Positions 27,735 through 48,375 of a DNA stretch of 64,000 nucleotides are shown here, one piece after another; the stretch's first letter is position 1, and every line of letters starts with the position of its first letter. Both the position numbers and the translations under genes were made by a program. The DNA lies in contig JAQTOP010000009.1 of assembly GCA_028713285.1 (NCBI GenBank), positions 1 to 64,000 of the forward strand, read 5' to 3'. Below the pieces are notes generated by a model that was not told the DNA's origin, made no database searches, and was given only the letters and a program-made list of their open reading frames with translations. Origin of the DNA: Terrimicrobiaceae bacterium. GTDB lineage: Bacteria; Verrucomicrobiota; Verrucomicrobiia; Chthoniobacterales; JAATET01.

Positions 27735-28073
27735 CTATCCGGCAAGGATCTCGTGCAGCCCGTCGATCACTTGTTCCAGTTCCTCGACGGATACGCTTCC
27801 AAGCTTCTTTACGAGCCGTTTCACCGAAAGCGTGCGGATCTGGCTGATCTTCACCCAGGAGCGTTTTGGCAACTTCCCCGTGCCGAGTTCCAGCGTGAGC
27901 GGAAATCCGGCGCGCGGTTCCTGGCTTGTCAACGTGCAGGCAATGACTGTCCCTGAGCGCTCGTTGAAGACATCCTGGCTCAGCACCACGACCGGGCGTC
28001 GGCCGGATCGTTCATGGCCCTTCGTCGGGTCGAGTTCCGCCCAGACGATATCGCCCCTCAATATTCTGGCCAT
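27735..28073 (-). CDS. MazF/PemK-type mRNA interferase toxin
   Basis: 112-residue endoribonuclease toxin of a type II system. Typical MazF motifs are RGDIVWAELDPTKGHERSGRRPVVVLSQD at the N-terminus, VIACTLTSQ, and WVKISQIRTLSVKRLVKKLG carrying the conserved Asp/Gln-Ile-Arg segment. The ATG at 28071-28073 lies inside the end of the antitoxin gene (16-base overlap), the usual antitoxin-first arrangement. It ends convergently with the GH9 gene. Confidence 0.9.
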   Translation of the reverse strand: MARILRGDIVWAELDPTKGHERSGRRPVVVLSQDVFNERSGTVIACTLTSQEPRAGFPLTLELGTGKLPKRSWVKISQIRTLSVKRLVKKLGSVSVEELEQVIDGLHEILAG

Positions 28074-28279
28074 TCCGCCATATCCTTCGCGATCCCTTCC
28101 TCGGCCATTTCCTGCTCCTCGGTTCGCGAAAGCTTTGCGCACTCCCGCGCGAGCCGGCTGCGATCCAGGCGCGCGAGCTTTTCGGCCACGGCTTTCTGAA
28201 TCCCTTCGCTCCGGCTGCGGAAAACGTCTCGCTTCACGAGGCTGTCCAACCGGCGAAGCAAACGGTCGTCAATCGACAC
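28058..28279 (-). CDS. Antitoxin of the MazF-type toxin (ribbon-helix-helix type)
   Basis: 73 residues from a GTG at 28277-28279: VSIDDRLLRRLDSLVKRDVF is a ribbon-helix-helix-like DNA-binding start, followed by RSRSEGIQKAVAEKLARL and an acidic C-terminus (EEQEMAEEGIAKDMAEWPEY) suited to bind the toxin. The frame remains open upstream to 28489, but that part shows no protein-like pattern. It overlaps the toxin start by 16 bases. Autoregulation by the pair is expected from the family. Confidence 0.8.
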   Translation of the reverse strand: MSIDDRLLRRLDSLVKRDVFRSRSEGIQKAVAEKLARLDRSRLARECAKLSRTEEQEMAEEGIAKDMAEWPEY

Positions 28280-28289
28280 GTCACTCGCC

Positions 28290-28730
28290 TCGCCGGAAGT
28301 GCCGTGTTGCCAGAAAACCTGCCGGGTCTGTGGCCTGCCGACGGCTCCGGCTCGAAGCTCAAGGATTTGTGCGCCTGCTTCGACGGCGCACACACTTTCG
28401 AGGAGCGATACGACGAAACCAATGTCGAACGGCGTCCGATTCCCAAAGCGACACCTAAGGCAAGCCGGCCATCGTTGAGCCACCGCCAATTCCGCCCGGC
28501 GGCAAGTTCTCCAACTCAGTTGCGCCCGGCGTTGGAGAGGTTCAAAGCTTGGCCGAAGAAATTTCGGACTTGGTGACAGCGCTCGCCGGCATGGAACCTG
28601 AGATCAAAATCCGCGTGAGTATTAAGACACAACCAGCCCAGGACTACTCGGCTGCCAAAAAGTCCTCGAACGCGTCAAACAGGGTCGGGCCGTCTGATTT
28701 TCTACCGGGTGGAAACTGGCGATTGAGCCT
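28290..28730 (+). pseudogene. Decayed gene remnant, possibly C-terminus of a DUF499-type ATP-binding protein
   Basis: No intact gene lies here. Two plus-strand frames carry protein-like fragments that join across a frameshift near 28440-28500: LPENLPGLWPADGSG with FEERYDETNVERRPIPK, then PPGGKFSNSVAPGVG and EEISDLVTALAGMEPEIKIR VSIKTQ. The second fragment resembles the end of DUF499-type proteins (helix, then a beta strand of alternating E/I/K residues). This is a weak resemblance judged by eye; the region may instead be non-coding. Confidence 0.3.
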
Positions 28731-28742
28731 CGAACGGCACGC

Positions 28743-29849
28743 CTATGCGCAGACCGTTTCCCGGGGCAGGCTTCGCCGAATGTCCGCCGCGCGATCGAAA
28801 ATCTCCTCCCGCGTGACGCCCGCCTCGGCATACATCGCGAAAATATTGGCGTCGGGCGTCTCGGGCGGGATGGTGTGCGAGGCCGCCAGGATGTAGCCGC
28901 CGCCATCCGCCGCCATGATATCGAGCAGGTTGCGCGTGGCCCGGCGCACGTCATCGACGCTGCCGTTGGGAAGCATGTCCTGCGTGTCCACGCCGCCCAT
29001 GAATGCGAGCTGGCCGCCGAATTCCCTTTTCAATTCCACGGCGTCCATGCCGGGGCAATTGCATTGAACGGGATTAAGCACATCCAGGCCCATTTCGACC
29101 AAATCGCCAATGATTGAGCGCAAGGCGCCGCAGCAGTGATAGGCCACCCAGAGCCCGCGCTTGCGACCGACATCGAACACCCGCTGCAAATGCGGACGCA
29201 CGATGCGCCGCCACGTCTCCGGGCTCATCATCATCCCGGTCTGGCTCGCGACGTCGTCGCCGGTCCAGAGCCAATCCAGCGGGAACCGGTCGCACGCCGC
29301 TTCTCCAAGCGCGATGGCGAAATCGGCGCAATGCCCCACCATCTCCGCGGCGAATTCCGGGTCGTCCGCAAAATCCATCAGCGCATTTTCCATCCCGCGC
29401 AATCGCCAATACATCTCGAAACCGCACGGCGAAATGTCGCAGCCGAGAAACCGTTCTCCGGCGTTTCGTGCCACGGGCTCCATCTGCCGGAGCAGGTCCT
29501 CCTGGTGCTGATACGGAAACGGGTAGGCGCGCACGGCATCGAGTTCGGCCTCGTCAGCCAGCGGGAATCGGTCGATCTGGTTGAATGCCCCGTCCTTGAC
29601 CCAGTGAATCCCCCAGTAGTCCGTATGCGATTCACCGTCCCGCTCGTGGACGATGCCCTCCATGGCGTAGTTGTTGTTCACCCACGCCTGGCACGCGTCG
29701 TTTCCCATCGCCTCGCCGACGCGTGCGGGCGGAATCTCCAGCAAATTCCCCAAACGCGCGCCGGTCTCCGGGTGGAACCACATGAAAACGGGGACGCGAT
29801 CTACCGGCCTGCGTTCCAACGCCGCATGCACTCGCTCTTTTGATGTCAT
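28743..29849 (-). CDS. Uroporphyrinogen decarboxylase/MtaA-family methyltransferase-like protein (copy 1)
   Basis: 368 residues, UroD fold, start ATG 29847-29849 (MTSKERVHAALERRPVDRVP). Members include heme-pathway UroD and MtaA-type enzymes that move methyl groups from corrinoid proteins. Metal-site residues are visible as His238 and Cys240 in AYHCCGALRS (HxC); the third position, usually Cys, is His325 in AASHTIPPETP. The N-terminal Arg-rich region of true UroD is absent, so heme synthesis is unlikely. It lies 31 bp downstream of the phytanoyl-CoA-dioxygenase-like gene, in the same operon. Confidence 0.85.
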   Translation of the reverse strand: MTSKERVHAALERRPVDRVPVFMWFHPETGARLGNLLEIPPARVGEAMGNDACQAWVNNNYAMEGIVHERDGESHTDYWGIHWVKDGAFNQIDRFPLADEAELDAVRAYPFPYQHQEDLLRQMEPVARNAGERFLGCDISPCGFEMYWRLRGMENALMDFADDPEFAAEMVGHCADFAIALGEAACDRFPLDWLWTGDDVASQTGMMMSPETWRRIVRPHLQRVFDVGRKRGLWVAYHCCGALRSIIGDLVEMGLDVLNPVQCNCPGMDAVELKREFGGQLAFMGGVDTQDMLPNGSVDDVRRATRNLLDIMAADGGGYILAASHTIPPETPDANIFAMYAEAGVTREEIFDRAADIRRSLPRETVCA

Positions 29850-29880
29850 GGGCGCTCGGGCGATCCTCTTCGGTGGAGGG

Positions 29881-30696
29881 CTAGTATTTGAAGGTCGCGC
29901 CTGCTTCCTCGATACTGACCGCCTTGAAATCCGGCCGGGCAAAACGCTGGAACGGAACCGCGCCCGCGGGATTGTGGCGGTATTCGTCCACTCCCCGGCA
30001 AAGGTAGGCCTTGAAGTTCGGGTTTACCGAGAGATCGTTTTTCACCTCCGTGCCGGAGTAACGAATCGTCAAGCCCGCGCGGCGGCGTGCCGAGGGATTG
30101 GCCGGGGAGCCATGGATCGCGCGGTCATCGTGCAGGGAAAGCTCGCCGGCCTTCAGCTTGAATTGCACGGCGGTGTCCTCGCGGAACATCCCACTCTCCA
30201 GCTCAAGCGTGAGGACGGAGTCGGTCTGGCCGGAATGTTTGTGCTTGATCACGCCGCCCTTGTGCGAGCCCGGGATGATCTTCATCGCGCCGTTCTCGGC
30301 ATCCACGTCGTCGAATGCCAGCCACACCGTGACGCTGTGCTGGGGTTTCATCGGCCAGTAATAGGCGTCCTGATGCCAGCCGACCACTGCCTTGCTGAAC
30401 GGCTCCTTGATGAAAAAGCTGCTCGCCCACATGAAAAAGTTCGGTCCGAGAATGCCTTCGACGAGATCGAGAATCCGGGGATTGACGCAAATATCGTAGA
30501 GATACGTGCTGGTCTCGTGCCATTCGCGAATGTCCTTGGTCGTTTCCCCCGGCTTGAGCAGCTTCAACAGGTCGGGCAGTTCAGCGTTCATCTCCGCCAT
30601 TTCTTCCTGCGAGTAAATCGGCGGGAGGTCAACGAGGTATCCGTTCGTGGCGTAGAAGGCTTTCTGGTCGTCGGTGAGGCGGTAATTGTTGTTCAT
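29881..30696 (-). CDS. Phytanoyl-CoA dioxygenase (PhyH)-family Fe(II)/2-oxoglutarate oxygenase
   Basis: 271-residue oxygenase, cytoplasmic. The iron facial triad can be assigned: His108 and Asp110 in GWHQDAYYWP and His195 in DDRAIHGSP, with the 2-oxoglutarate Arg probably in RRRAGLTIRYSG. Such enzymes hydroxylate small molecules using O2 and 2-oxoglutarate, including oxidative demethylation. It is divergent from an AraC regulator at 30.8 kb, which probably controls it, and is followed closely by UroD-like copy 1. Substrate unknown. Confidence 0.88.
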   Translation of the reverse strand: MNNNYRLTDDQKAFYATNGYLVDLPPIYSQEEMAEMNAELPDLLKLLKPGETTKDIREWHETSTYLYDICVNPRILDLVEGILGPNFFMWASSFFIKEPFSKAVVGWHQDAYYWPMKPQHSVTVWLAFDDVDAENGAMKIIPGSHKGGVIKHKHSGQTDSVLTLELESGMFREDTAVQFKLKAGELSLHDDRAIHGSPANPSARRRAGLTIRYSGTEVKNDLSVNPNFKAYLCRGVDEYRHNPAGAVPFQRFARPDFKAVSIEEAGATFKY

Positions 30697-31753: not shown

Positions 31754-32830
31754 TCAACTGCGGCCGTCGCACGCGAGATTCAATCTCCGGCGAATATCCT
31801 CTGCTTCTGCATCCGTGCCTGCCGATGTAACCATGCCAATTCCGCGAGGCGGTATGATTGAGAAAAGCTCCTCGATTTCATCGGGAAAGACATACGTGAA
31901 TACGCTCTTGCCGGCCTTTTGAAGCATTTGGATGGCGGGAAGCACTTCCATTGCTTTCGTTCCCGGATTGGATCCAAGCTGAACGGCGTGCAGACCGGGA
32001 ATCCGCAGCAGGAAGTCGCGCAGATGGCGCTGACAGGCGGTGCCGTCCAGATGGAAAATGCAGTCGTCATAAAGCCCGCCCAAGGTGGAAAATTCCTCCG
32101 CGAAGAATTCCTTATACATGTCGGTTGACAGCATGATGGAGAGGTCGTTCTGGAGGATGCCGACGCTGCCGGGCGACCACAGGCAAAGCCATGACGACGT
32201 GCCATTCCCCGCGGATTCAAGAATTTCGTCGATGCGCTTGTTGCAGGTCACCTGGATATCCAGCATCCGGCGCAAAACCTTCTTTACCAGATCGGGACGG
32301 TCCAGCATTTCCTCCAGCAGCCGGTCGCTCCCGATCAACGCGGCCAGATTGTCTCCCAGCCCTCCAAGGTCGGGAATGACGGGGGCAAAGCCTCCGGACT
32401 TTGCCTCCCTTGCCGCGGTATGGCAGAAGCTTTCGACCATTTGCCACCAGGGATTTCCAGGATCAAACGCAATGTCTTCCAGGGTGGCCAGATCATCGGT
32501 GCAGGGGTGGAACCAGACCGTGTCGGGCCCAAACTCCACCCGCGATCCCAGAAACGCGCTTAGCATCGTGGGGCCGATCGGCATGCGCAGTGCGGGGATG
32601 GAATCGTCAAAGTCAAAGCGTCCCGCATCCCGAATTGCCCTTTTGAGCAGCACATCGGGATCGGTCCAATAGCGCGTGAGATCGTCGCGCTGCAGGGACT
32701 TGAGATGATCGTCCGTTTCTGAGATTCCCGGCCTGGGCGTGCTGATCAAGAGCAGGGGACGCTCGCAAGGCTCTCGTCTCCAAAAGGCGACGTGCCTTCG
32801 TTTGCGTGTTTCCAGGTTCTGGCCTGTCAT
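31754..32830 (-). CDS. UroD/MtaA-family protein with altered metal site (copy 2)
   Basis: 358 residues, recognisable as UroD-like by overall pattern (LCLWSPGSVGILQNDLSIML, the Tyr/Phe-rich barrel and a Gly-rich C-terminus). At the usual HxC zinc position it reads His260-Leu-Asp262 (FHLDGTACQRHL), so the Cys ligand is replaced by Asp, and no Cys is found at the third ligand position. It may bind a different metal or none, or bind a sugar or amine substrate instead. It lies 100 bp after the DUF6580 gene on the same strand, at the end of the mtaC/mtaB-like operon. Confidence 0.75.
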   Translation of the reverse strand: MTGQNLETRKRRHVAFWRREPCERPLLLISTPRPGISETDDHLKSLQRDDLTRYWTDPDVLLKRAIRDAGRFDFDDSIPALRMPIGPTMLSAFLGSRVEFGPDTVWFHPCTDDLATLEDIAFDPGNPWWQMVESFCHTAAREAKSGGFAPVIPDLGGLGDNLAALIGSDRLLEEMLDRPDLVKKVLRRMLDIQVTCNKRIDEILESAGNGTSSWLCLWSPGSVGILQNDLSIMLSTDMYKEFFAEEFSTLGGLYDDCIFHLDGTACQRHLRDFLLRIPGLHAVQLGSNPGTKAMEVLPAIQMLQKAGKSVFTYVFPDEIEELFSIIPPRGIGMVTSAGTDAEAEDIRRRLNLACDGRS

Positions 32831-32930: not shown

Positions 32931-33539
32931 TCAAATGCTCTTCGATACGCGAAGCCGGCAAGGCCGCAATGGCTGCTCCGGGGTGGACATCGAATTGGAC
33001 GTGAATCGCCTGCCCAGGGCAAAGCAGCCCACGAAGAGCAGCGTGAAAACGACGTCGCTCGCCAGCGAGTTTCGGAAAAACATCCAGGTCGGCGGGTAGC
33101 CGGGAACGCCGAGGGTGAGCGCCTGCCACCAGCCTGTGTCGGTCTTCGCGTATTCGGGCGCGGCAAGCCAGGAGACGGTGTTCGTGACCACGTAAAAGCC
33201 CGTCGAGCCGGCGACGCTGGCGAGCAGAAAGCTGCCGACACGCTTGCTGGCGCTCAGGCGCAAGCCGACGAGTGCAATCGCGAGCAGGGCGAAATAACGC
33301 GCGAACATCTCGCCGGTCGCAAGCGCGACTCCGAAGTGCCAGTTCAGCATGATGTCGGAAGCCAGTAGGATGGCCAGCGGCAGCGCCAAAGCGATGCGGC
33401 GCGGGAAAAGACTCGGAGCGCAAAGCGCAATGGCTGCGACGGGCGCGAAATTGGGGAGCCAGGAATCGCCGCCCGCGGTAAAGCCGAGGACGACGCGGTA
33501 AAGGACGGCGACAGCGAAGAGGATGAATGCGGGGATCAT
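32931..33539 (-). CDS. DUF6580-family integral membrane protein
   Basis: 202 residues, five or six membrane helices: IPAFILFAVAVLYRVVLGF, an LPNFAPVAAIALCAPSLFP loop-helix, IALALPLAILLASDIML, YFALLAIALVGLRL and a late FTLLFVGCFALG. The pattern, with the LPNF..VAA.AL.. segment after the first helix, matches DUF6580, a putative transport family resembling ECF substrate-binding components. It lies 64 bp downstream of the MtaB-like gene, so import of a corrinoid precursor or of the methyl donor is possible but untested. Confidence 0.75.
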   Translation of the reverse strand: MIPAFILFAVAVLYRVVLGFTAGGDSWLPNFAPVAAIALCAPSLFPRRIALALPLAILLASDIMLNWHFGVALATGEMFARYFALLAIALVGLRLSASKRVGSFLLASVAGSTGFYVVTNTVSWLAAPEYAKTDTGWWQALTLGVPGYPPTWMFFRNSLASDVVFTLLFVGCFALGRRFTSNSMSTPEQPLRPCRLRVSKSI

Positions 33540-33603
33540 AATTGCGGGTTGTTTGATGGGTTGATTGCTTGGATCGGGTTCTTGATGGAGTGGCACTTGG
33601 CGG

Positions 33604-34983
33604 TCAGGTTAGCCCGTATTCGGCGGCGATGAATTTCGTCGAATCCGCCAGCGCAAGTTGTTGGGAAATGAATTCGCCCTCGCTGTCCGGCAGATCGTCG
33701 AGGGTGTCATCAAGGGTGTCGAACCAGCCCGCTTCGTTGCCGGCGATGCGCAGCCGCCCGGCGGCGTTTGCTTCGCGCAACAGCGAGACGGCCTTGCGGG
33801 CCACGGCGATGCCGGCGTGGTAATGCGAATCGCTCCCAACGATGGCGCGGGCCAGCTCGACGGAGGATTCCGGCGAAATGATGAACGCCTGCGGATCGGT
33901 GGCCACGTCGGACTCGACCAGCCAGCGCTGCAGCATGCGCGCGGAGTCCCTGCCCTCGGCGCGGGCGCAATTCATGAGCCGGCAATCGTAGATAAGCTGC
34001 TCCATGTAGCAGGTCGGCGCCATGCCGCCGAGCAGCTTGATGTTTTGCACCGATTCGTTCGACCAGGTGTCGCACGTGGCGGCCGCGAGATTCCCCATCG
34101 GGCTGAGATGCGCGCAGGCGGAAGTCTTGCCCTCCATGGCCATCGGGAAGCCGGTGATCGCCTTGAGGATCGGGTTTTCGTAGCCGCAATCCTTGCCCGG
34201 CCCGACCGCGCCGCATTCGTAGGCCACGAGGGAGCGGACGGCGGTCACCGCGCGCACGACGGCGGCGAACACGCGGGGAATCATCTTTTGCTCGGCAAGC
34301 ACCATCGCGGTGTTCCCAAATCCGCACGCGGTGTCGCCTGCGCAATAGACCCCGTGCTTCTTCGCGATATCGTTCAAATGGGTCCACAGGAACCGCATGT
34401 CCCGTTCACCGAGGATGCAAAGCGAGAAAATGCTCGCCGCGAGATCGCCGTTGACCAGCGCCTCGTCGTGCAATTCCTTGCCGCCGACGGATTCAATGCT
34501 CAGCAACTCCGCGCCTGCCGCGGCCGAGCCCTCGAAAAGCTGGAGCATCGCCTCCCAATACCGCCCGCGGCGCATGAGCGGAGGCCGCTCGAATTCGCGG
34601 TTGTCGTTCGGCGTCATGCGCAGCACGCTCTTCAGCCCGCTGCGGGCCTTTTCCCGCTCCATTCCCTCGATCAGGATGTTCACGATCTCCATCCCCCACT
34701 CCGGATGCTCGGTCATCGGCGGCAGCGTCTCGAACTCGATCACCACGCCCGGCGCGGTCAACTCCGCCGCGCGACCGAGCGCTCCTTCGATGATGTCCGC
34801 GTAGTTGCGCCGGACCTCCGCCATGCCTGCGGCGTCGATGGTGATGGGCGGCAGCGTGAAGTTCAGTTCCGGATAGACCGTGCCGCCGCCGATTACCATG
34901 CCTTCGCGCGTGGTGAGAGGATGCGGAGCGACTCCGAAGATGAGTTCAGCCGGATCATCGATGGCCAGGGAGGTGTATTTCAT
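33604..34983 (-). CDS. Methanol:corrinoid methyltransferase MtaB-like protein
   Basis: 459 residues, full length for MtaB. Zinc-ligand residues line up with the site known in archaeal MtaB: Glu164 (SIESVGGKE), Cys220 (CAGDTACGFGNTAM) and Cys266 (VGPGKDCGYENPIL). MtaB cleaves the C-O bond of methanol and transfers the methyl group to Co(I) of its corrinoid partner; bacterial homologues may use other methoxy compounds. The partner MtaC-like gene lies 27 bp upstream on the same strand. Assignment to the MtaB family is strong; the methyl donor is inferred. Confidence 0.92.
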   Translation of the reverse strand: MKYTSLAIDDPAELIFGVAPHPLTTREGMVIGGGTVYPELNFTLPPITIDAAGMAEVRRNYADIIEGALGRAAELTAPGVVIEFETLPPMTEHPEWGMEIVNILIEGMEREKARSGLKSVLRMTPNDNREFERPPLMRRGRYWEAMLQLFEGSAAAGAELLSIESVGGKELHDEALVNGDLAASIFSLCILGERDMRFLWTHLNDIAKKHGVYCAGDTACGFGNTAMVLAEQKMIPRVFAAVVRAVTAVRSLVAYECGAVGPGKDCGYENPILKAITGFPMAMEGKTSACAHLSPMGNLAAATCDTWSNESVQNIKLLGGMAPTCYMEQLIYDCRLMNCARAEGRDSARMLQRWLVESDVATDPQAFIISPESSVELARAIVGSDSHYHAGIAVARKAVSLLREANAAGRLRIAGNEAGWFDTLDDTLDDLPDSEGEFISQQLALADSTKFIAAEYGLT

Positions 34984-35010: not shown

Positions 35011-35646
35011 TCAGGCCTTCGCGCGCAACAGCTCCAGAGCGGCATCCACGGCCGAGCCTGCGTCCCGCGAATAGCCGTCGGCGCCGATCTCCTCCGCGAA
35101 CTCACGGGTGATGGGCGCACCGCCGACCACGATCTTGACCGGGATGCCGGCGTCGCGGATCGCCTTCACCGTGGTCCGCATCGCGGGCATGGTGGTCGTC
35201 AGCAGCGCGGAAAGCCCGACGAGATGCGGTTTGTGCTGCGCGATGGCTTCGACGAATTTCGCCGGCGGCACGTTCACGCCAAGGTCGATCACTTCCATGT
35301 TCGCGCCCTTCCACATCATCGCGACGAGGTTCTTGCCGATGTCGTGAAGATCCCCCTCGACGGTGCCGATGATGGCCGTGTGCTCGGGGCGGACGCCCGC
35401 GGCCACCAGCAGCGGCTCGAGGATTTTCAGCGCCTCCTTCATCGCGCGGGCTGCCACGAGCATCTCGGGAACGAAAATCTCGTTTTTCTTGAACCGCTCG
35501 CCCACCACCGTCATGCCCGGCACGAGGCGATCCTGGACGATGGACTTGGCGTCCTCGCCCGCGTCGAGGCACTGTTGGACAAGATCGGGGACTTCCTTGC
35601 GCCGTCCGTTGATCACCGCCTGGGTAAGAGGATGTAGCTCGTTCAT
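35011..35646 (-). CDS. Corrinoid-binding methyltransferase subunit, MtaC-like
   Basis: 211-residue cobalamin-binding protein: an N-terminal helical cap (about 1-85) and a Rossmann-like B12 domain. The B12 motif DxHxxG is Asp99-Leu-His101-Asp-Ile-Gly104 (EGDLHDIGKNLV), with GLSALLTTTMPAM and VGGAPI completing the signature. The protein carries the methyl group between MtaB and an acceptor methyltransferase. The start ATG 35644-35646 is taken because the open frame upstream crosses the divergent intergenic region. Confidence 0.93.
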   Translation of the reverse strand: MNELHPLTQAVINGRRKEVPDLVQQCLDAGEDAKSIVQDRLVPGMTVVGERFKKNEIFVPEMLVAARAMKEALKILEPLLVAAGVRPEHTAIIGTVEGDLHDIGKNLVAMMWKGANMEVIDLGVNVPPAKFVEAIAQHKPHLVGLSALLTTTMPAMRTTVKAIRDAGIPVKIVVGGAPITREFAEEIGADGYSRDAGSAVDAALELLRAKA

Positions 35647-35764
35647 GGGGCCGGAGCGTAGCGGATCGGGGTCCACCGATCTTGTGATCTCGGACGTTTC
35701 TTTTGTGATCCGGTGCTCGCCGATTGCGTGCCGCGCGGGAGGTTTGTAACAAAATGAACCCTGG
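35647..35764. promoter_or_regulatory. Divergent promoter region between mtaC-like and homocysteine methyltransferase genes
   Basis: 118 bp between opposite starts; it must drive both the corrinoid operon (minus strand) and the acceptor methyltransferase pair (plus strand). It includes TTTCTTTTGTGATCCGG and TTTGTAACAAAATG, whose TTTTG/CAAAA pieces form an imperfect dyad. A cobalamin riboswitch box was sought and not found. Confidence 0.35.
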
Positions 35765-36670
35765 ATGATGCAAACCGACCTTCTTAGCAATCTCACCGCG
35801 CGTCCGCTATGCTGCGACGGCGCGATGGGAACGCAGCTCCTTGCCCGCGGCCTCGCGGGAGGCGCGTGCGGCATGTTGTGGAATGTGGATCGTCCCGCCG
35901 ATATTCGCGCGATTCACGCCGCGTATCGCCGCGCCGGATGCGACTTGATCACCACCAACTCCTTTGGCGGTTCCGCGTTCGCGCTGGCGCGCCACGGTCT
36001 TGGGGATCGCGTGGACGACCTGAACCGCGCCGCCGCGCAAGTGGCCCGCCAGGCGGCCGGCGAGACCGGATGGGTGCTTGGAGACGTCGGTCCGTTCGGC
36101 GATTTTCTCGAACCGCTCGGCGACACGACGGCGGATGAACTGCTCGACCTGTTCCGCGCGCAAATCGGAGCGCTGGTTGCCGGCGGTGCGGATGCGATTC
36201 TTGTCGAAACCATGAGCGACCCCGCCGAGGCAATCGTTGGGGTTGAAGCCGCAAGGTCATGCTGCCCCGATGTTCCGGTGATTGTTACGTATGCCTTTCA
36301 AAAGACCGCGGCCGGAGAGTTTTGCACGATGATGGGCACGGGCGTGCGCGAGGCCATCCATCGCGCAATTGACGCCGGTGCGCGCATCGCCGGAGCGAAC
36401 TGCGGCACGTCTCTCGATCTCGAAGACTACGTTGAACTCGCAAGGCAGATCGTCGGCGCGGCGGGCGGAACCCCTGTCATCATCCAACCAAACGCCGGCT
36501 CGCCCCGCATGGAAGGCGGACGCACGGTTTACAGCGCCACGCCCGAGGAAATGGCCGCGGCCGCACTGCGACTGCTCGACGCCGGGGTGCGCATCGTCGG
36601 CGGATGTTGCGGCACCACGCCCGACCACCTGGCGGCCATCGGCTCGGCCCTCAAAACCAGGACTACCTGA
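35765..36670 (+). CDS. Stand-alone homocysteine S-methyltransferase (MetH N-domain type)
   Basis: 301-residue zinc methyltransferase of the Hcy-binding family, equivalent to the first module of MetH. The zinc cysteines are Cys213 (GANCGTS) and Cys281-Cys282 (GGCCGTTPDH); the N-terminus CCDGAMGTQLL and TNSFGGS are family motifs. It would pass a methyl group to homocysteine, forming methionine. It lacks folate, B12 and activation modules, but it is divergently adjacent to the MtaC-like corrinoid gene, which could supply methylcobamide. The alternatives are S-methylmethionine or betaine as donor. Confidence 0.88.
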   Translation: MMQTDLLSNLTARPLCCDGAMGTQLLARGLAGGACGMLWNVDRPADIRAIHAAYRRAGCDLITTNSFGGSAFALARHGLGDRVDDLNRAAAQVARQAAGETGWVLGDVGPFGDFLEPLGDTTADELLDLFRAQIGALVAGGADAILVETMSDPAEAIVGVEAARSCCPDVPVIVTYAFQKTAAGEFCTMMGTGVREAIHRAIDAGARIAGANCGTSLDLEDYVELARQIVGAAGGTPVIIQPNAGSPRMEGGRTVYSATPEEMAAAALRLLDAGVRIVGGCCGTTPDHLAAIGSALKTRTT

Positions 36671-36675
36671 AAAAT

Positions 36676-37680
36676 ATGAATTCCCGCGAACGCTACATCC
36701 ACATGCTCGAAGGCCGCGAGGTGGACATTGTTCCGCGCATCCCGATCCTCATGGGCTTCGCCGCGCATTTCATCGGCTCGAATTACGCGGCGTTTGCCTC
36801 GGACCATCGCGTGCTTGTGGAAGCCAACATTCGCTGCGCGGAGGCGTTTGGAATCGACCAGATGAATACGATGTCCGATCCGTATCGCGAGACGCAGGGC
36901 TTCGGCGCGGAAATCATCTACGAAGAGCATGGCGTCCCGCGCTGCCTGCGCCCTCCTTTCGAGGATGAACTGAATCCCGCTTCCATCCGGAAACCCGATC
37001 CGCTGACTTCCGCGCGCATGCGCGACCGGATTGACGCCGTGCGCGAATACAAGCGCCGCGTCGGCGGCCAATACTCCATCATGGGCTGGGTCGAGGGGCC
37101 CGCCGCCGAGGCCGCCGATCTGCGCGGCCTGGAAAATTTTCTTTGCGATTTGATGGAAGAGCCGGAACTGGCCTGCGAATTGATGGATCTCTGCGTGGAT
37201 CTTGCCATCGACTTTGCCCGCGCCCAGGTCGAGAACGGCGCGGATACCATCGGCGTCGGCGATGCGATTTGCAGCCAGATGTCGGCGGAACTGTATCGCA
37301 CCCTGGTCTGGCCCCGTGAGCAGCGGCTCGTGGACGCGATTCGCGCGATGGGTGTTTACGTGAGGCTGCACATTTGCGGCAACATCACGCACCTGCTGCC
37401 GTTCCTTGCGAAACTCGACGTGAACATCGTCGATATCGACTGGCTCGTGGACATGCGGCAGGCGCGCGACGTGCTCGGGCAGGGCAAGGTGCTCGCCGGG
37501 AATCGCGATCCGGTCGCGTCCGTTCTTCGCGGCGCACCCGAAAGTATTCGCGGGGAATTCCGGGAAATTTACATGAATGTCGGAAACCGCTACATGGTGA
37601 ACGCCGGCTGCGAAATCCCGCCCGGCACACCGCACGAGAACGTGCGCGCCGTCTGCGCGCCGATTCCGTTTCGCAGGTAG
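36676..37680 (+). CDS. UroD/MtaA-family methyltransferase with complete zinc motif (copy 3)
   Basis: 334 residues from ATG 36676, 5 bp after the homocysteine methyltransferase gene, so they form one operon. The full MtaA-type zinc set is present: His232 and Cys234 in RLHICGNITH and Cys312 in VNAGCEIPPGTP. Bacteria lack coenzyme M metabolism of the methanogen type, so the acceptor would be another thiol or tetrahydrofolate, or the enzyme may act on a methylated substrate. Of the four UroD-like proteins here this is the most likely active methyl-transfer partner of MtaC. Confidence 0.88.
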   Translation: MNSRERYIHMLEGREVDIVPRIPILMGFAAHFIGSNYAAFASDHRVLVEANIRCAEAFGIDQMNTMSDPYRETQGFGAEIIYEEHGVPRCLRPPFEDELNPASIRKPDPLTSARMRDRIDAVREYKRRVGGQYSIMGWVEGPAAEAADLRGLENFLCDLMEEPELACELMDLCVDLAIDFARAQVENGADTIGVGDAICSQMSAELYRTLVWPREQRLVDAIRAMGVYVRLHICGNITHLLPFLAKLDVNIVDIDWLVDMRQARDVLGQGKVLAGNRDPVASVLRGAPESIRGEFREIYMNVGNRYMVNAGCEIPPGTPHENVRAVCAPIPFRR

Positions 37681-42329: not shown

Positions 42330-43085
42330 TCAAGGCGCGGGTGCGTTGCCATTGCTGGGCGGCTTCGCGCCGTTCGTTTTGTTCGCCTCGCGGAACTGCC
42401 TTGGCGTCATCTGCTTCGCCTGCTGGAAGACGTGGGTGAAATAACTCTGGTCGCAAAAACCGCACGCGCCGGCAATCTCGGCGAGTGACTGCTCGGTCCT
42501 CAGGAGCAACTCAGACGCCAGATCGACACGGCATTGCCGCATCAGATCGGTGAAGGAGCGACCCGTCCGCTCCCGCAGCAGGCGCGAAAAATGGCTTGGT
42601 GAAATGCCGGCGAATCGCGCGATTTCGTCGCGCGTGACATCGCGTTGCAGATTCTCGCGCATGTAATTGAGCGCTTTCGTGACCATCAACGACGGCGTAA
42701 AATCCTCCTGCCGCTCCATGGCGGCGAACATCCGCTCGAGTGTCGCGCGCAGCCATTGGGCGAGCTGTTCGTCATCGTCGATCCCCGCGAGTTCCGTGAT
42801 GCATTGGAAATTCATCCCGAGGACGTCCGCCTGGGCCGCGCCAGCTTCGACCGCCGCGCGGGAAATCATCACCACGAGTTCCAAGAGCAAGCCCTTGAGG
42901 AGATCGCTCCGTTCCTGTCCAGCACTGTAAATGTGAACCAGCACATGATTGACAATGCGTATGGCCTCCCCGCGGTCGCCGCGTTGAATCGCGGCCAGCA
43001 GCGCGGGCTCCTGGTAGAGATAAAACTCGCGAATCCGGTCGTAGGGCCGGTGTTCGAGGAGTGGGACGGAAGGAAAATCGTTCAT
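42330..43085 (-). CDS. AraC-family regulator without a recognisable N-terminal sensor (PocR C-half-like)
   Basis: 251 residues: a helical N-terminal part (YQEPALLAAIQRGDRGEAIRIVNHVLVHIY) like the linker region of PocR-type regulators, then a standard AraC HTH pair (VTRDEIARFAGISPSHFSRLLRERTGRSF; IAGACGFCDQSYFTHVFQQAKQMTP). No cupin or PocR ligand domain is present. The ATG overlaps the RACo stop by four bases, so it is the third gene of the DUF1638-RACo operon and probably regulates the locus. Confidence 0.85.
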   Translation of the reverse strand: MNDFPSVPLLEHRPYDRIREFYLYQEPALLAAIQRGDRGEAIRIVNHVLVHIYSAGQERSDLLKGLLLELVVMISRAAVEAGAAQADVLGMNFQCITELAGIDDDEQLAQWLRATLERMFAAMERQEDFTPSLMVTKALNYMRENLQRDVTRDEIARFAGISPSHFSRLLRERTGRSFTDLMRQCRVDLASELLLRTEQSLAEIAGACGFCDQSYFTHVFQQAKQMTPRQFREANKTNGAKPPSNGNAPAP

Positions 43086-44731
43086 GGCAGCATGAGGTGA
43101 TCGACGAAACGGTCCTCGAAATCCTCTTGAAGATTCAGTTCGAGCACCTCCACCCTCGATCGCAAGGACTCCATCTCATCCAGGGCCGTCCGGTCCAGCA
43201 GCGCAAGCAGCGTGCCGGCGAGCGCGGTGTTTCCCACGACACGCACCTGTTCCTCGCGGAACCCGGGCAGCAGCCCCGCGGCGATCGCGTGGCCGACGTT
43301 CAAATGCATGCCGAATCCGCCGGCCAGATACACCCGCGAGATTTCACCGGCTTCGATGCCTGCTGCCTCCAGTAAAGTTTCAATGCCCGCGCCGATGGCC
43401 GCCTTTGCCTGCAACAACACGGCGACATCCACCTCGCTGATGCGCGCTTCGCCCGCGATTCGCAGCGCTCGCGTTCCATCGGTCTCGATGCGGTCGCCCG
43501 GCGGCACCAGCTTCCACGCGGCGGGATCAAATCTTCCCGACTCGAGCAGGAATCCGCACCGTCTGCCGGCCGACAGAAAATCGACATACGCCGATCCGCA
43601 GATGCCGGTCGCACGGACCGCTGGGATATTTCCAATCGTCTCCGCTTCCACGCGGAATGGATCGAGCGTCAGATTGATTCCGCTGATCGCCCCGTCGCGA
43701 GCGCGGGTGCCGCAACGCAACCCGGAGCCTTCGAAAGCCGGGCCCGCGGCCGTTGCGCAGGCTGTCAGCCGCCCGCCGCTTTGCAGCACGATCTCGCCGT
43801 TTGTGCCGATATCGACAAGCAGGCTGGGCGCTTCATCGAAAATCATGCCGGTCGCATACACGCCCGCGACGATGTCCGCTCCGATGTAAGCCGCGATTCC
43901 GGGAAGCAGTTGCAGCGGCGTGTCCGGCGAAAGGGCGTCGCCGTTTTTGCCCGCGGCCAGCCCGATGCCGGAGGCGGTCAGGCGTTTGCCCTCGATGAAG
44001 CACGGCACGAATGGCGCGACGCCGAGCGGGGAGGGGTCTACGCCCGTGAGAAGGTGCAGCATCGTCGTGTTGCCCGCGATTGCGCCGCCCGCCAGCCGCG
44101 ACGGCGCGCGCCCGGCCCGGTCGCACGCGCGCAGCAGGAGCGGCGAGATGGTTTCTGAGACGGCGGCGAATTGCATGGCCGCCAGAGCCTCGCAGGAACG
44201 CGCGGCGTCGATCCGCGTCAGGACGTTGTCGCCAAATCGGATTTGCTCGTTGAATCCACCGGTCCGCGAGAGGACATCGCCCGTCGCGAGATCGATAAGC
44301 AGCACCGCAACCGTCGTCGTTCCGAGATCGACGGCGAATGCCGTGTCCCGTCCGCCCGGCGCCGGCTCAAACAACGGCAGGTGCGCGCACGGGACATCGA
44401 TGCGAAACGTGTCGATCACCTGCGGTCGATGCTCGATTCGCGAACGCGCCGGAATTCGCAGCACGACATGCGCGCGGTCCATCACCCGCGCCCGGCACGC
44501 CTGCACCGTCGCCGGAGCGGAAGCGGCATCCGGTCCGACGGACACCGCTCCTCCGCGCATTTGCACCTCGCAGCCGTGACACAACCCGCGCTGGCCGCAA
44601 CGGGTGTTCAACGGGAAGCCGTGCTCCGCCAGCAGATCGGCGAGCGAGCGTCCGGCAGCCCGCGGGTCCACGACAAACTCACGCGGTTCTTCGTCCTCGA
44701 TCTCAACGACGATCCGCGTTCCCCCGCTCAT
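43082..44731 (-). CDS. RACo-type reductive activator of corrinoid proteins (2Fe-2S/DUF4445)
   Basis: 549 residues. An N-terminal plant-type 2Fe-2S domain has Cys45, Cys51, Cys54 and Cys79 (NTRCGQRGLCHGCEV; VQACRA), then a linker and the ASKHA-type DUF4445 domain (FAVDLGTTTVAVLLIDLATG, AIAGNTTMLHLLTGVDPSPLG, LLVDIGTNGEIVL, VYLAGGFGMHLN). These proteins use ATP and an electron to return inactive Co(II) corrinoid to Co(I). The start ATG 44729-44731 overlaps the DUF1638 stop. This gene is the strongest evidence that the neighbouring MtaC-like protein works in catabolic methyl transfer. Confidence 0.93.
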   Translation of the reverse strand: MSGGTRIVVEIEDEEPREFVVDPRAAGRSLADLLAEHGFPLNTRCGQRGLCHGCEVQMRGGAVSVGPDAASAPATVQACRARVMDRAHVVLRIPARSRIEHRPQVIDTFRIDVPCAHLPLFEPAPGGRDTAFAVDLGTTTVAVLLIDLATGDVLSRTGGFNEQIRFGDNVLTRIDAARSCEALAAMQFAAVSETISPLLLRACDRAGRAPSRLAGGAIAGNTTMLHLLTGVDPSPLGVAPFVPCFIEGKRLTASGIGLAAGKNGDALSPDTPLQLLPGIAAYIGADIVAGVYATGMIFDEAPSLLVDIGTNGEIVLQSGGRLTACATAAGPAFEGSGLRCGTRARDGAISGINLTLDPFRVEAETIGNIPAVRATGICGSAYVDFLSAGRRCGFLLESGRFDPAAWKLVPPGDRIETDGTRALRIAGEARISEVDVAVLLQAKAAIGAGIETLLEAAGIEAGEISRVYLAGGFGMHLNVGHAIAAGLLPGFREEQVRVVGNTALAGTLLALLDRTALDEMESLRSRVEVLELNLQEDFEDRFVDHLMLP

Positions 44732-45480
44732 GGCGCGTCTGCTTTTTCGTTGGCAGGCTCGGACCGCATGACGTTTGCGTCGGCGGAATTGGCGAGCTGC
44801 GAACCGGGTTCGATGATTTGAAAGCGTTCCGGATCCCACCGGCCCCACAGCAAATCGCGCAGCAACGACGGATCGCCGCGTATGCGCTCGAACCGCCAGC
44901 CCAGCCAGTCCGCGCACCGGCGGGCGTAGGCCGCTTCGTCCTCGGCGTCGTCGGTGCCGAGATCGAGATAGACCGCGGTGTCGTGCAGAGCCCATTGCTC
45001 CCGCTCGTTTTCGAGCAGGAAGTCCACGTTGTCCTCGTCGAACTGCCTGGAAAGTTCTGTCCGGAGCAGGGCGAGCCTTTCGGGGCCGGGCACCCGCCGC
45101 TCACGGTTCCAACCCGGCGTGTAATAATAGCAGGAGGGACAGCCGCGTTGCTGCTCCGCGAAGCGCTCCTTGCTCCCCATGAAAATCGCGATGCAATCGT
45201 GGGTGCGCGGAATCACGAGAGGGTGTCGTTGCGGCCGCAACCCCGCCGTTCCGCAGCCGCAAAGACCGTAGGCAAGCGCGATGGCATCGACGTCATCGCG
45301 CGCGTCGATTTCGTCCACCGCCGCCTGCAAGATCTCCCGGAGCTTGTCGGGACGGTCGTGCAGACCCACCTCGAAAAACTTCACCGCCGGGAGATGAGCG
45401 GCGCCTGAGGCGAGCAGCGCGATCTCCCGTTCAAACACCGAGCAGGCAAGCAAGCCGACCCTTGGAACCGGGGATGACAT
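44728..45480 (-). CDS. DUF1638 family protein
   Basis: 250 residues from ATG 45478-45480; a GTG three codons upstream is an alternative. Family motifs are LACSVFEREI at the N-terminus, YGLCGCGTAGL, PRTHDCIAIFMGSKERF and GCPSCYYYTPGWNR, with several conserved Cys and His that suggest a metal site. DUF1638 genes recur beside corrinoid methyltransferases and RACo, but no activity is established as far as I know. First gene of the DUF1638-RACo-AraC operon, divergent from the ABC importer. Confidence 0.85.
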   Translation of the reverse strand: MSSPVPRVGLLACSVFEREIALLASGAAHLPAVKFFEVGLHDRPDKLREILQAAVDEIDARDDVDAIALAYGLCGCGTAGLRPQRHPLVIPRTHDCIAIFMGSKERFAEQQRGCPSCYYYTPGWNRERRVPGPERLALLRTELSRQFDEDNVDFLLENEREQWALHDTAVYLDLGTDDAEDEAAYARRCADWLGWRFERIRGDPSLLRDLLWGRWDPERFQIIEPGSQLANSADANVMRSEPANEKADAP

Positions 45481-45611
45481 GTCCCACACAAATAGGCCGT
45501 TTCCCTGTGGGTGGCAAGCCAGCCGATGGCAAGCCCCGCGGCTGGAAATTCTCTTGCTTAAGACGACTGCGGGAGCGACTTTTGGCCAGGGCCAGCATGG
45601 GGGAGTTTCCT
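45481..45611. promoter_or_regulatory. Divergent promoter region between DUF1638-RACo operon and ABC importer, with Shine-Dalgarno
   Basis: 131 bp between opposite starts. On the plus strand GGGGGAGTTTCCT lies directly before ATG 45612, a good ribosome-binding site that favours this start over the ATG at 45597. TTGCTT at 45553 is a possible -35. Shared control of the importer and the corrinoid operon is possible. Confidence 0.45.
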
Positions 45612-46682
45612 ATGAAAAATAAAATCACTCACCTCGCCGGGACGTGTGTGGTGGCCTTCGCCGCATTGCTGTCATTCACCCAGTTCGGACATGCCGCGGA
45701 CAAGACGCTGCGAATCATCGGCTGGGAGGGCTACATGGATCCGTCCTTCACGGCGGAATTCACCAGGCGCACCGGCTACAAGATCGTGCCGACCTATTGC
45801 GGATCGAGCGACGAAATGTATGCCAAGATCAAGGCGGGAGGCGGGAGTTCGTATGATCTCGTGACAGCCTCCGGCGATCTCACGCGCAAGCTTTTCGACG
45901 CCGGCCTGCTGCAACCTATCGACCTCGCAAAGGTGCCCAACTACGACAAGCTCTTCCCGCTTTTCAAGAGCCCGCCTTACAACACCTTCGACGGAAAGAA
46001 CTACGGCATCTCGATTGCGTGGGGTCCGGACCTCTTGATCTACGATCCCGAGCAGGTCACCGACGCCGAGGCGGGCACGTGGATGTCGTTCTTCGATCCG
46101 AAATTCAAAGGCAAAATCAGCATCAACGACTACAGCATTTTCCTGGCCGACATTAAGCTGTGGTTCTACGGGCCGGAGAACATCTTCGCCATCGACGAGC
46201 AGGAGCTCCAGACGAAGATCAAGCCAAAGCTAATGCCCCTGCGTCCGCAGATTCGCAAATTCTGGACGAGTCAGGGCGAGCTGACCCAGCTCTTTTCCGG
46301 CAAGGAGATCGCGATGGCCTGGGGCTGGCCGGTGACCGTCGTGCAGCTTAAGAAGGACGGGTTCCCGGTGAAGGCGACCGTGCCCAAGGAAGGGACCACC
46401 GGCTGGTCCGACAGTTGGATGATCATCAAGGGAAGCCCGAACAGCGCCATCGCGCAGGAGTGGATGAATTACATGCTCGAGGGCGAAGCGCAGAAGAAGC
46501 TCGTCGCTGCGAGTGGATACTGGCCGGTGAGCAGCGCGATCGTCCCCTTGCTCAGCAAAGCCGAGCGGGCCGATCTCCATATCGACGACCTCGATACGTA
46601 TTTCAAAACGATCCATTTTTGGGAGACCGTTCCGAACCTGGATCAATGGAATGCGTTGTGGAACGAGTTCAAGGCTCAGTAA
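45612..46682 (+). CDS. Periplasmic substrate-binding protein, spermidine/putrescine (PotD/PotF)-like
   Basis: 356 residues with a clear signal peptide (LAGTCVVAFAALLSFTQFGHA) and the PotD fold: LRIIGWEGYMDPSF, YCGSSDEMYAKIKAGGGSSYDLV, YDPEQV..WMSFFDPKFKGKIS and WGWPVTVVQLKKDG. PotD-type proteins bind polyamines, but homologues bind other small amines such as mannopine or betaines. It leads an importer set of two permeases and an ATPase, and is divergent from the corrinoid-activation operon, so a methylated amine ligand is conceivable but speculative. Confidence 0.88.
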   Translation: MKNKITHLAGTCVVAFAALLSFTQFGHAADKTLRIIGWEGYMDPSFTAEFTRRTGYKIVPTYCGSSDEMYAKIKAGGGSSYDLVTASGDLTRKLFDAGLLQPIDLAKVPNYDKLFPLFKSPPYNTFDGKNYGISIAWGPDLLIYDPEQVTDAEAGTWMSFFDPKFKGKISINDYSIFLADIKLWFYGPENIFAIDEQELQTKIKPKLMPLRPQIRKFWTSQGELTQLFSGKEIAMAWGWPVTVVQLKKDGFPVKATVPKEGTTGWSDSWMIIKGSPNSAIAQEWMNYMLEGEAQKKLVAASGYWPVSSAIVPLLSKAERADLHIDDLDTYFKTIHFWETVPNLDQWNALWNEFKAQ

Positions 46683-46728
46683 CAGGCGGCCCTCCGGATC
46701 GGGCTGAGCGGCTGCGCGAGGAGGCCTG

Positions 46729-47593
46729 ATGCCGGCGACCGCCGCCGTGCAGCACAGGCGGGCAGGCCTTGGTTTCTGGGCCTGCTTTTTGCCGTCATTT
46801 TCGTGGATGGCGGTGCTTTATTTTCTCCCGCTCGGCGTGCTCCTGGGCCTGGCGTTTCAAAAGCACGAATACGTGCAGGTTGTCCACGAGTTCACGCTCG
46901 AGAACTTTGCGACCGCGTTCTCCGAGTCCTATCGGCCCACGCTCGTGCGGACGCTGTCGGTCGCTGCTTCGGTGACGGCGATCGACATGGCCGTCGCGTT
47001 TCCGGTCGCCTATTTTCTGGCTTTCCACGCCGGCCGCTTCAAGCCGCTCCTCACCGTCCTCGTGCTTCTGCCGCTGTGGAGCAGCTATCTCGTGCGCGTC
47101 TTCGCGTGGCGGATCATTCTCGGCCGCACGGGCATTCTCAACTGGGCGCTGATGAAGCTGGGCATCCTCGACGAACCGTCGCCGGCATTTGTTTACAACC
47201 TGTTCTCGATGGGGCTGACGCTTTGCTACATCTGGCTTCCCTTCATGATCCTGCCGCTCGTGACGGCCTTCGAACGCCTGCCCCGCAATCTCCTCGAGGC
47301 GTCCGCCGATCTCGGCGGAAACGCGCTCGTGACCTTTCGCCGCGTGGTCGCCGCTGGTGATGCCGGGGATGCTGGCCGGCGGACTGAGCGTGTTCAGCCT
47401 CACCAGCGGCGACTACATCACGCCGTCCCTGATCGGGGGCCCGGGCGACTCGCTGGTCGGCAACATCATCGCGGAGCAGTTCGGCGTGGTGTCGAATTAT
47501 CCGCTGGGCGCCGCGCTGTCGGCGATCGTGCTCCTTGTTCTATTTGCGCTCATGGCGATTCTCGCGCGGCGCGGTGTGCTGGAGGGCCTTTGA
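46729..47593 (+). pseudogene. PotB-like ABC permease, interrupted by a frameshift
   Basis: The first frame encodes a normal permease start (after GAGGAGGCCTG-ATG) with five membrane helices up to LGGNALVTFRRVV near 47349. The rest (PLVMPGMLAGG, FSLTSGDYITPSLIGG, and IIAEQFGV to a stop at 47593) continues in the next frame. A gain of one base or loss of two near 47350 explains it; homologues would read RVVxPLVMPG there. In the original frame translation does not stop but runs through into the next permease in frame. Either a sequencing error or a real lesion in an otherwise intact importer. Confidence 0.85.
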
Positions 47594-47595
47594 AT

Positions 47596-48375
47596 ATGAT
47601 TCCGCGCAACACCGGCAAATGGCTCACGGGGTTCTTTACGCTCGGCGTGTTCCTTTTCATGCACCTGCCGGTGGCGGTGATCGTGCTCTTCAGCTTTAGC
47701 GACAAGCACGTGCTGACTCTGCCGATTCGCGGATGGACGCTGGATTGGTATCGGCTGGCGATCGAGGACGAGCGGCTGCGCACGGGCCTGATGAACAGCT
47801 TGAAAGTGGCGTCGTCCGCGACCCTCGCCGCGACGCTGCTGGGCACGCTCGCGGCATTCGCGGTGGCCCGCTGGCGGTTCTTCGGCCGGGGCGCTTTTCG
47901 ATCCGCGGTGGTGATTCCGATTCTGCTGCCCGGGATCGTGACGGGCGTGGCGATGCTGAGCTTCTTTGGCACCGCCGGGCTGCCGCTCGGGCTCCTCACC
48001 GTGATCATCGGCCACGCGACCTTCGGATTTCCCGTGGTTTTCAATACGATGAATGCGCGCTTCGGGCAGTTGCCGCGCAGTCTCGAGGAGGCGGCGGCGG
48101 ATCTCGGAGCAACGCCTGCGCAGGCGTTCTGGCGGGTGACGTTTCCGGCGATTCGGTCCGCATTGATCGCGGGCGCGCTGCTGGCATTCACGCTGAGCTT
48201 CGATGAGATCGTGGTGACCATTTTTCTCACCGGTCCGGACAACACGCTGCCGATGGAAATCTACTCGCGCCTGCGATTTGGGATGACGCCCGAAATCAAT
48301 GCCGTCGTGACCCTGATTCTGGTTGTCTCGGGGGTTCTCGTCGTGATGAGCACATGGTTTGGACGAAGGACATGA
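47596..48375 (+). CDS. PotC-like ABC permease
   Basis: 259 residues, six membrane helices (FFTLGVFLFMHLPVAVIVLF, SSATLAATLLGTLAAFAVAR, AVVIPILLPGIVTGVAMLSFF and later ones). The EAA cytoplasmic loop is seen as LEEAAADLGATPAQAFWRVTFPAI. It is the second membrane subunit of the importer. The ATG lies 3 bp after the PotB stop and the stop overlaps the ATPase ATG (ATGA). Confidence 0.9.
   Translation: MIPRNTGKWLTGFFTLGVFLFMHLPVAVIVLFSFSDKHVLTLPIRGWTLDWYRLAIEDERLRTGLMNSLKVASSATLAATLLGTLAAFAVARWRFFGRGAFRSAVVIPILLPGIVTGVAMLSFFGTAGLPLGLLTVIIGHATFGFPVVFNTMNARFGQLPRSLEEAAADLGATPAQAFWRVTFPAIRSALIAGALLAFTLSFDEIVVTIFLTGPDNTLPMEIYSRLRFGMTPEINAVVTLILVVSGVLVVMSTWFGRRT

Follow-up and report, generated by a model that had tools for sequence, protein, structure and literature searches.

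A probable methionine synthase in pieces: a stand-alone homocysteine methyltransferase paired with a corrinoid protein and a methyl-harvesting enzyme

Introduction

The window analyzed in this study, a stretch of 64,000 nucleotides from a Terrimicrobiaceae bacterium, encodes an MtaB-like methyltransferase, an MtaC-like corrinoid protein and a stand-alone homocysteine S-methyltransferase (HMT). The locus raises the question of which molecule accepts the methyl group carried by the corrinoid protein. The original prediction, made from the window alone, was that the methyl group could pass from MtaB to MtaC and then directly to homocysteine. No report of an MtaB-MtaC-homocysteine route was found in the literature. 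This study was concerned with the identity of each module, the company it keeps in related genomes, the shared promoter and the possible sources of the methyl group.

Genomes compared

Two sets of genomes were used. The first contained 197 related genomes, in which HMT orthologs were defined by at least 59% identity (the next best matches, at 43%, were fusions) and MtaC orthologs by at least 52% identity. The second contained 42 genomes of the HMT clade from Verrucomicrobiota and Planctomycetota and was collected independently, by a pattern scan; matching contig coordinates show that no fewer than five of the 42 also belong to the first set. The comparison genomes are drafts, and many are metagenome-assembled.

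Gene organization of the locus

Table 1. Positions in the window of the genes and the promoter element discussed in this study.
Feature	Position	Strand	Evidence
mtaB-like, presumed methyl-donor module (methanol or other substrate:corrinoid methyltransferase)	33604-34983	-	PF12176, 539 bits
mtaC-like stand-alone corrinoid protein, methyl carrier, 211 aa	35011-35646	-	PF02607 + PF02310
Operator-like conserved element, common mtaC/HMT promoter	35678-35717	.	Two CTTGTGAT-type half-sites, 21-bp period
Stand-alone HMT, MetH-N type, presumed acceptor module	35765-36670	+	PF02574, 221 bits (cut-off 22)
URO-D family, MtaA/CmuA-like; candidate second donor-side (or thiol-side) methyltransferase	36676-37680	+	PF01208, 208 bits
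AraC42, AraC-family regulator, candidate ligand of the mtaC/HMT operator	42330-43085	-	HTH_18/HTH_AraC
RACo/RamA-like ATP-dependent corrinoid reductive activase	43082-44731	-	PF14574, 222 bits; PF17651, 147 bits
DUF1638 protein, partner of the RamA-like activase in Phaeobacter split MetH	44728-45489	-	PF07796, 128.7 bits
Predicted membrane protein (DUF6580), next gene downstream of mtaB	32931-33596	-	PF20221, 109 bits

The mtaC and HMT genes are divergent, as predicted, and are separated by 118 bp (Table 1). The mtaB gene lies just downstream of mtaC on the same strand, and the URO-D gene at 36676-37680 begins 5 bp past the end of HMT and is co-directional with it; HMT and this URO-D gene probably form one operon. 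AraC42, the activase and DUF1638 form a block (42330-45489) about 7 kb from mtaC/HMT. The URO-D gene behind HMT, the activase and DUF1638 add to the genes named in the original prediction. Alignment of homologs indicated that the catalytic residues are intact in MtaB, MtaC, HMT, the URO-D protein behind HMT and the activase. On the basis of the co-occurrence tests reported below, the gene arrangement is not due to chance.

Several other genes were noted in the window. A three-gene ABC importer (solute-binding protein, permease and ATPase) at 45462-49466(+) is divergent from DUF1638. At 28743-30696(-) a URO-D gene, which by eye is without the last zinc cysteine, adjoins a gene for a PhyH (phytanoyl-CoA dioxygenase-like) protein, and AraC regulators lie close by. 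The gene at 27735-28489(-), with an antitoxin upstream, has by eye the look of a putative MazF/PemK-type toxin. Of 50 MtaC loci, 12 have a homolog of the DUF6580 protein near MtaC, in most cases 22-57 bp away (e.g. L032, L159 and L161). This predicted membrane protein recurs beside mtaC or mtaB and might transport a corrinoid or the methyl substrate.

Identity of the homocysteine enzyme, the corrinoid protein and the activase

HMT is a protein of 301 aa that scored far above the PF02574 cut-off in the profile search (Table 1). The three zinc cysteines that marked it as MetH-N type in the original prediction (Cys213, Cys281 and Cys282) were found at those positions and are invariant among 42 orthologs. 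In a sequence search of solved structures, the MetH homocysteine domain was matched at 6e-44, MmuM at 1e-14 and BHMT at 3e-13. The AlphaFold2 model has a pLDDT of 92.7, and its top 16 structure matches are all MetH. By sequence and by predicted fold, HMT is thus nearest to the MetH homocysteine domain. In the tree, the 44 close homologs of HMT form a single clade (SH-aLRT 89), separate from both the HMT-MTHFR fusions and the MetH of the same organisms.

The MtaC-like protein contains the B12-binding_2 and B12-binding domains, and the histidine of its DxHDxG motif (His101) is invariant in 51 homologs. The listed open reading frame reaches 35874. In the homolog alignment the conserved start (MNELHP...) lies at 35646, so the gene was assigned to 35011-35646(-); the start at 35874 is without homolog support. 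The protein scored below the NCBIfam methanogen equivalog cut-offs (125 against 420 and 130 against 450). The original prediction was corrected in that the protein is nearer to the generic MtgC/MtbC/1y80 type than to methanogen MtaC.

The activase matched the AcsV model with 303 bits. Its open reading frame was listed to 44995; as judged from the translation, the likely start is 44731, overlapping the stop of DUF1638. Its iron-sulfur cysteines (Cys133, Cys139, Cys142 and Cys167 in the numbering of the listed frame) are conserved. In the split MetH of Phaeobacter, the RamA-like protein and DUF1638 are both required (PMC5764234).

Co-occurrence of HMT and MtaC

Within the first set, HMT was present in eight of 197 genomes and MtaC in ten. 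All eight HMT genomes have MtaC (Fisher p = 9e-13), and the six genomes with MtaB are all among these eight (p=4e-10); both p-values are optimistic because the genomes are phylogenetically correlated and relatedness was ignored. MtaC without HMT was identified in two relatives (G013 and G066), and the route is absent from the three same-genus genomes.

Within the second set, MtaC was present in 41 of 42 genomes. In the one exception (G207), HMT is preceded by purU, the gene for formyl-THF deformylase, and the contig ends 353 bp upstream of this pair; in the related genome G200, a contig breaks off precisely at the operator that separates mtaC from purU-HMT. Half of the HMT loci (22 of 44) have MtaC within 3 kb. 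The two genes are divergent with less than 200 bp between them in six loci in addition to the window, and same-strand gaps of 9-17 bp occur in two. DUF1638 and the activase are also frequent neighbors at the HMT loci (n=44). HMT and MtaC appear to be an invariant pair in these genomes. The conserved core consists of HMT, MtaC, the activase and DUF1638, and MtaB would be only one of several methyl sources.

Sources of the methyl group

The MtaB of the window matched Methanosarcina barkeri MtaB (2i2x_A) with E=1e-90, and the zinc ligands Glu164, Cys220 and Cys269 of the latter correspond to Glu164, Cys220 and Cys266. The score on the NCBIfam MtaB_Meth model was 418 bits, under the methanogen equivalog cut-off of 720, and methanol is therefore only the presumed substrate.

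A second candidate was identified in relatives. The family designated c3 is a divergent URO-D family of about 343 aa with an invariant H234-x-C236...C320 motif, and in many Verrucomicrobiota its gene either separates mtaC from HMT or adjoins them (L056:8190-9221(-) and 19 other genomes). Its predicted structure has a pLDDT of 80, was built from just seven sequences and is uncertain at the C-terminus; it fits URO-D, MtaA and, weakly, MetE folds. c3 is a candidate methyl-donor enzyme of a new URO-D family. A genome search identified no c3 in the window genome, which rules it out as the methyl donor there. MtaB is present in 16 and c3 in 20 of the 42 HMT-clade genomes, and every genome of the 197-genome set with both HMT and MtaC has MtaB and/or c3. 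MtaB, c3 and perhaps the URO-D enzyme behind HMT look like interchangeable methyl sources. The original prediction was refined in this respect: its HMT-MtaC core stood, with MtaB as one of several sources.

The URO-D protein at 36676-37680 belongs to the MtaA/CmuA family. It has an intact zinc motif (H232-x-C234...C312), its nearest PDB entry is 4ay7, a methylcobalamin:CoM methyltransferase, and it scored 162 bits on TIGR01463, under the cut-off of 235. These properties would suit an enzyme that takes the methyl group from MtaC and passes it to another thiol, coenzyme-M-like or small, with HMT doing a separate job. Homologs lie beside MtaC/HMT in L058 and L170, the one in L058 (61% identity) between the two genes. 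However, close homologs (at least 40% identity) were identified near HMT in only six of 44 loci, two of them within 3 kb, whereas the pairing of HMT with MtaC is near-universal. In addition, the gene is co-directional with HMT, and URO-D enzymes such as CmuA can equally be donor-side. For these reasons a URO-D acceptor seems unlikely, and HMT is preferred as the acceptor.

The window also encodes, at 31754-32830(-), a URO-D-like protein that matched no Pfam family. In G200, a genome without MtaB, c3 or a pterin methyltransferase, the gene directly after mtaC encodes a homolog with 31% identity (L150:774-1898(+)), so this protein may represent a further donor family.

Apparent absence of a folate link in the window genome

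The original prediction had noted that no pterin methyltransferase is visible in the window and had named such an enzyme elsewhere, paired with MtaC, as one finding that would speak against direct transfer. The search was extended to the whole assembly, which is 97.8% complete. It contains three PF00809 proteins, namely MetH and two that score above the equivalog cut-off for dihydropteroate synthase (DHPS). The latter two (C30 and C118) were considered as pterin partners and rejected, since reading through them and the cut-off both identified them as DHPS. No stand-alone pterin methyltransferase of the MtgD type (PF00809) and no MtrH were identified in this assembly. A folate acceptor for MtaC is therefore not apparent, and the observation made on the window holds for the whole assembly.

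The same genome encodes an HMT-MTHFR fusion and a MetH that is complete, with a reactivation domain of its own. The split route is thus an extra and not the sole methionine synthase of the organism, and it is likely an accessory use of environmental methyl groups. Its sporadic presence among related genomes, including its absence from the same genus, is consistent with an accessory route.

The relatives are more varied. A stand-alone protein related to methyl-THF:corrinoid methyltransferases was identified in 15 of the 42 HMT-clade genomes. It adjoins MtaC in G221, and in other relatives it lies within an operon of MTHFR, the methyl-THF:corrinoid-type methyltransferase (PtMT) and formate-THF ligase (FTHFS), for example at L223:2555-6734(-) and L232:2396-6654(-). 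In those organisms the operon suggests that methyl groups are oxidized or that MtaC is linked to folate. The folate-free state is therefore true of the window genome and many relatives, not of all. In such other genomes, a pterin methyltransferase would seem to be another interchangeable methyl source for the HMT-MtaC core. Five of the 42 genomes are without MtaB, c3 and the folate-type protein.

These relatives bear on a second alternative, in which the locus is an ordinary split synthase of the Phaeobacter type that draws on 5-methyl-THF through a pterin methyltransferase encoded elsewhere, while MtaB sends surplus methyl groups to THF. Ruegeria uses MtgD in that way, and the 15 genomes above also speak for it. 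The PF00809 inventory of the window genome argues against it, as does the absence of the folate-type protein from 22 of the 28 genomes that have MtaB or c3, a tendency to mutual avoidance (Fisher p=0.015). We regard a hidden folate supply as quite improbable in the window genome and retain the folate-free route.

The shared promoter and its regulator

The intergenic region between mtaC and HMT has diverged among the window and its relatives, save for a block of about 40 bp with the consensus nGTCTTGTnATnnGGnATnATTCTTTGGTGnTnnnGTGCT. The block holds two CTTGTGAT-like half-sites with a period of 21 bp. A half-site period of 21 bp is typical of AraC-family sites. The element was matched once in the window, at 35678-35717, and never in 100 shuffles; a reversed control of 1.07 Mb also gave no match. 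It lies between mtaC and HMT or between mtaC and purU-HMT in L016-L022, L045, L049, L052, L056 and L165; in L038, L172 and L174 it separates mtaC from the ortholog of AraC42. In many clusters an AraC42 ortholog (44-76% identity) adjoins MtaC, HMT or the activase, and AraC42 is a candidate for the regulator that binds the mtaC/HMT operator. Riboswitch control of the shared promoter was dropped, there being no Rfam match anywhere in the window. The purU gene lies directly upstream of HMT, behind the operator, in L018, L020, L025, L045, L049, L052 and L165.

Four AraC regulators surround the cluster, together with several URO-D-like genes, and related clusters swap donors. Such surroundings would also fit methyl disposal or energy metabolism, with methionine only a transit form on the way to SAM and other products and the cluster serving mainly to demethylate methoxylated or methylated substrates for catabolism by means of several URO-D genes. 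No downstream gene of methionine catabolism was identified beside the cluster, and this reading is very unlikely. It is harder still to credit that HMT works independently, on S-methylmethionine or betaine, and was placed near mtaBC by chance: it shares the Pfam family of the S-methylmethionine- and betaine-homocysteine methyltransferases and has PRK07534 (betaine-homocysteine) as its second NCBIfam match, but it falls under the cut-offs of both families (226 against 338 bits for PRK07534 and 111 against 215 for PRK09485), its predicted fold speaks against BHMT and MmuM, it is nearer to MetH by about 30 orders of magnitude in E-value, and it is tied to MtaC by co-occurrence, adjacency and a common operator.

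Discussion

In our judgment the locus probably encodes a methionine synthase in pieces, in which a methyl-harvesting enzyme takes the place of the folate module. By comparative genomics the route from MtaB through MtaC to homocysteine appears well supported: HMT and MtaC are nearly inseparable, they share an operator, and HMT resembles MetH. We infer the following flow of methyl groups. MtaB, a zinc enzyme, would take the methyl group of methanol, or of a similar methyl compound, and pass it to the cob(I)alamin bound by the MtaC-like protein. Once methylated, this carrier would dock directly on the HMT barrel, where zinc-bound homocysteine would take the methyl group to give methionine and cob(I)alamin. 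Cobalt that is oxidized to Co(II) would be reduced again by the RACo-type activase with DUF1638. Expression of mtaC and HMT is probably switched jointly, through the AraC-type operator that lies in their common promoter.

A broader reading is that of a folate-free synthase of exchangeable parts, widespread in Verrucomicrobiota and Planctomycetota, with an invariant HMT-corrinoid core, its own activase and a pluggable harvester, either MtaB or URO-D. We put the chances of this reading at about even. If it is true, environmental methyl groups enter methionine while bypassing one-carbon folate metabolism.

These results matter for several reasons. First, they suggest which enzyme may act as the acceptor in bacterial genomes that have MtaB/MtaC-type genes but no recognized second methyltransferase, a gap noted in other metagenome-assembled lineages (PMC11264602). 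Secondly, the link between demethylation and methionine synthesis described in 2025 (PMC12478193) would be extended to a folate-free form, other donors and other phyla. Third, if the route is true, methionine could receive its methyl groups directly from methanol that is released as plant or algal polymer decays. Lastly, the analysis names specific targets for tests, namely the genes of the cluster, their conserved operator and the new URO-D family.

Comparison with known systems

Several known systems share parts of this design. The methanogen MtaABC system has an MtaB with the conserved Glu/Cys/Cys zinc site and an adjacent corrinoid carrier. However, the acceptor in the window appears to be HMT and not MtaA, and MtaB and MtaC both fall under the methanogen equivalog cut-offs. 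The core methionine synthases (MesA/B/C/D and core-MetE) also methylate homocysteine without folate, with the methyl group probably coming from a corrinoid protein in most families (PMC7857596, PMC7005905). They have a MetE/URO-D fold and use corrinoid proteins of the Wood-Ljungdahl pathway or methanogenesis, whereas the window has a MetH-type (PF02574) enzyme and a corrinoid protein proposed to be charged by MtaB. The Type 1 mlp clusters combine MtaA-like URO-D proteins, a corrinoid protein and an activase, and were proposed to salvage methyl groups into methionine from methyl-selenium or methyl-sulfur compounds (Kountz and Balskus, PMC10418091). HMT or MtaB is not reported in the core of those clusters; the window has one good MtaA-family member (36676-37680) and weaker URO-D genes, in an order that differs from the mlp core.

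The split MetH of Phaeobacter inhibens (PMC5764234, 2018) likewise has HMT, a corrinoid protein, a RamA-like protein and DUF1638 as separate genes, but it includes a third, pterin-binding piece and has no methanol-type donor enzyme. The MtgBCDE system of Ruegeria pomeroyi (PMC12478193, 2025) has a separate homocysteine module (MtgE), a corrinoid protein (MtgC), a RamA-like activase and DUF1638, and its substrate methyltransferase feeds the same corrinoid protein that serves methionine synthesis. The demethylation of betaine and the synthesis of methionine share a single MtgC there, and methionine formation depends on a pterin protein, MtgD (PMC12478193). The Ruegeria donor is MtgB (PF06253), which acts on betaine, and most such genomes are without MetH. 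In the system of the window, in contrast, MtgD is absent, MetH is also present, the predicted donor is MtaB (PF12176) or URO-D, and the hosts are Verrucomicrobiota and Planctomycetota. The closest known systems are thus split MetH and MtgBCDE, and the system of the window is a folate-free variant of them.
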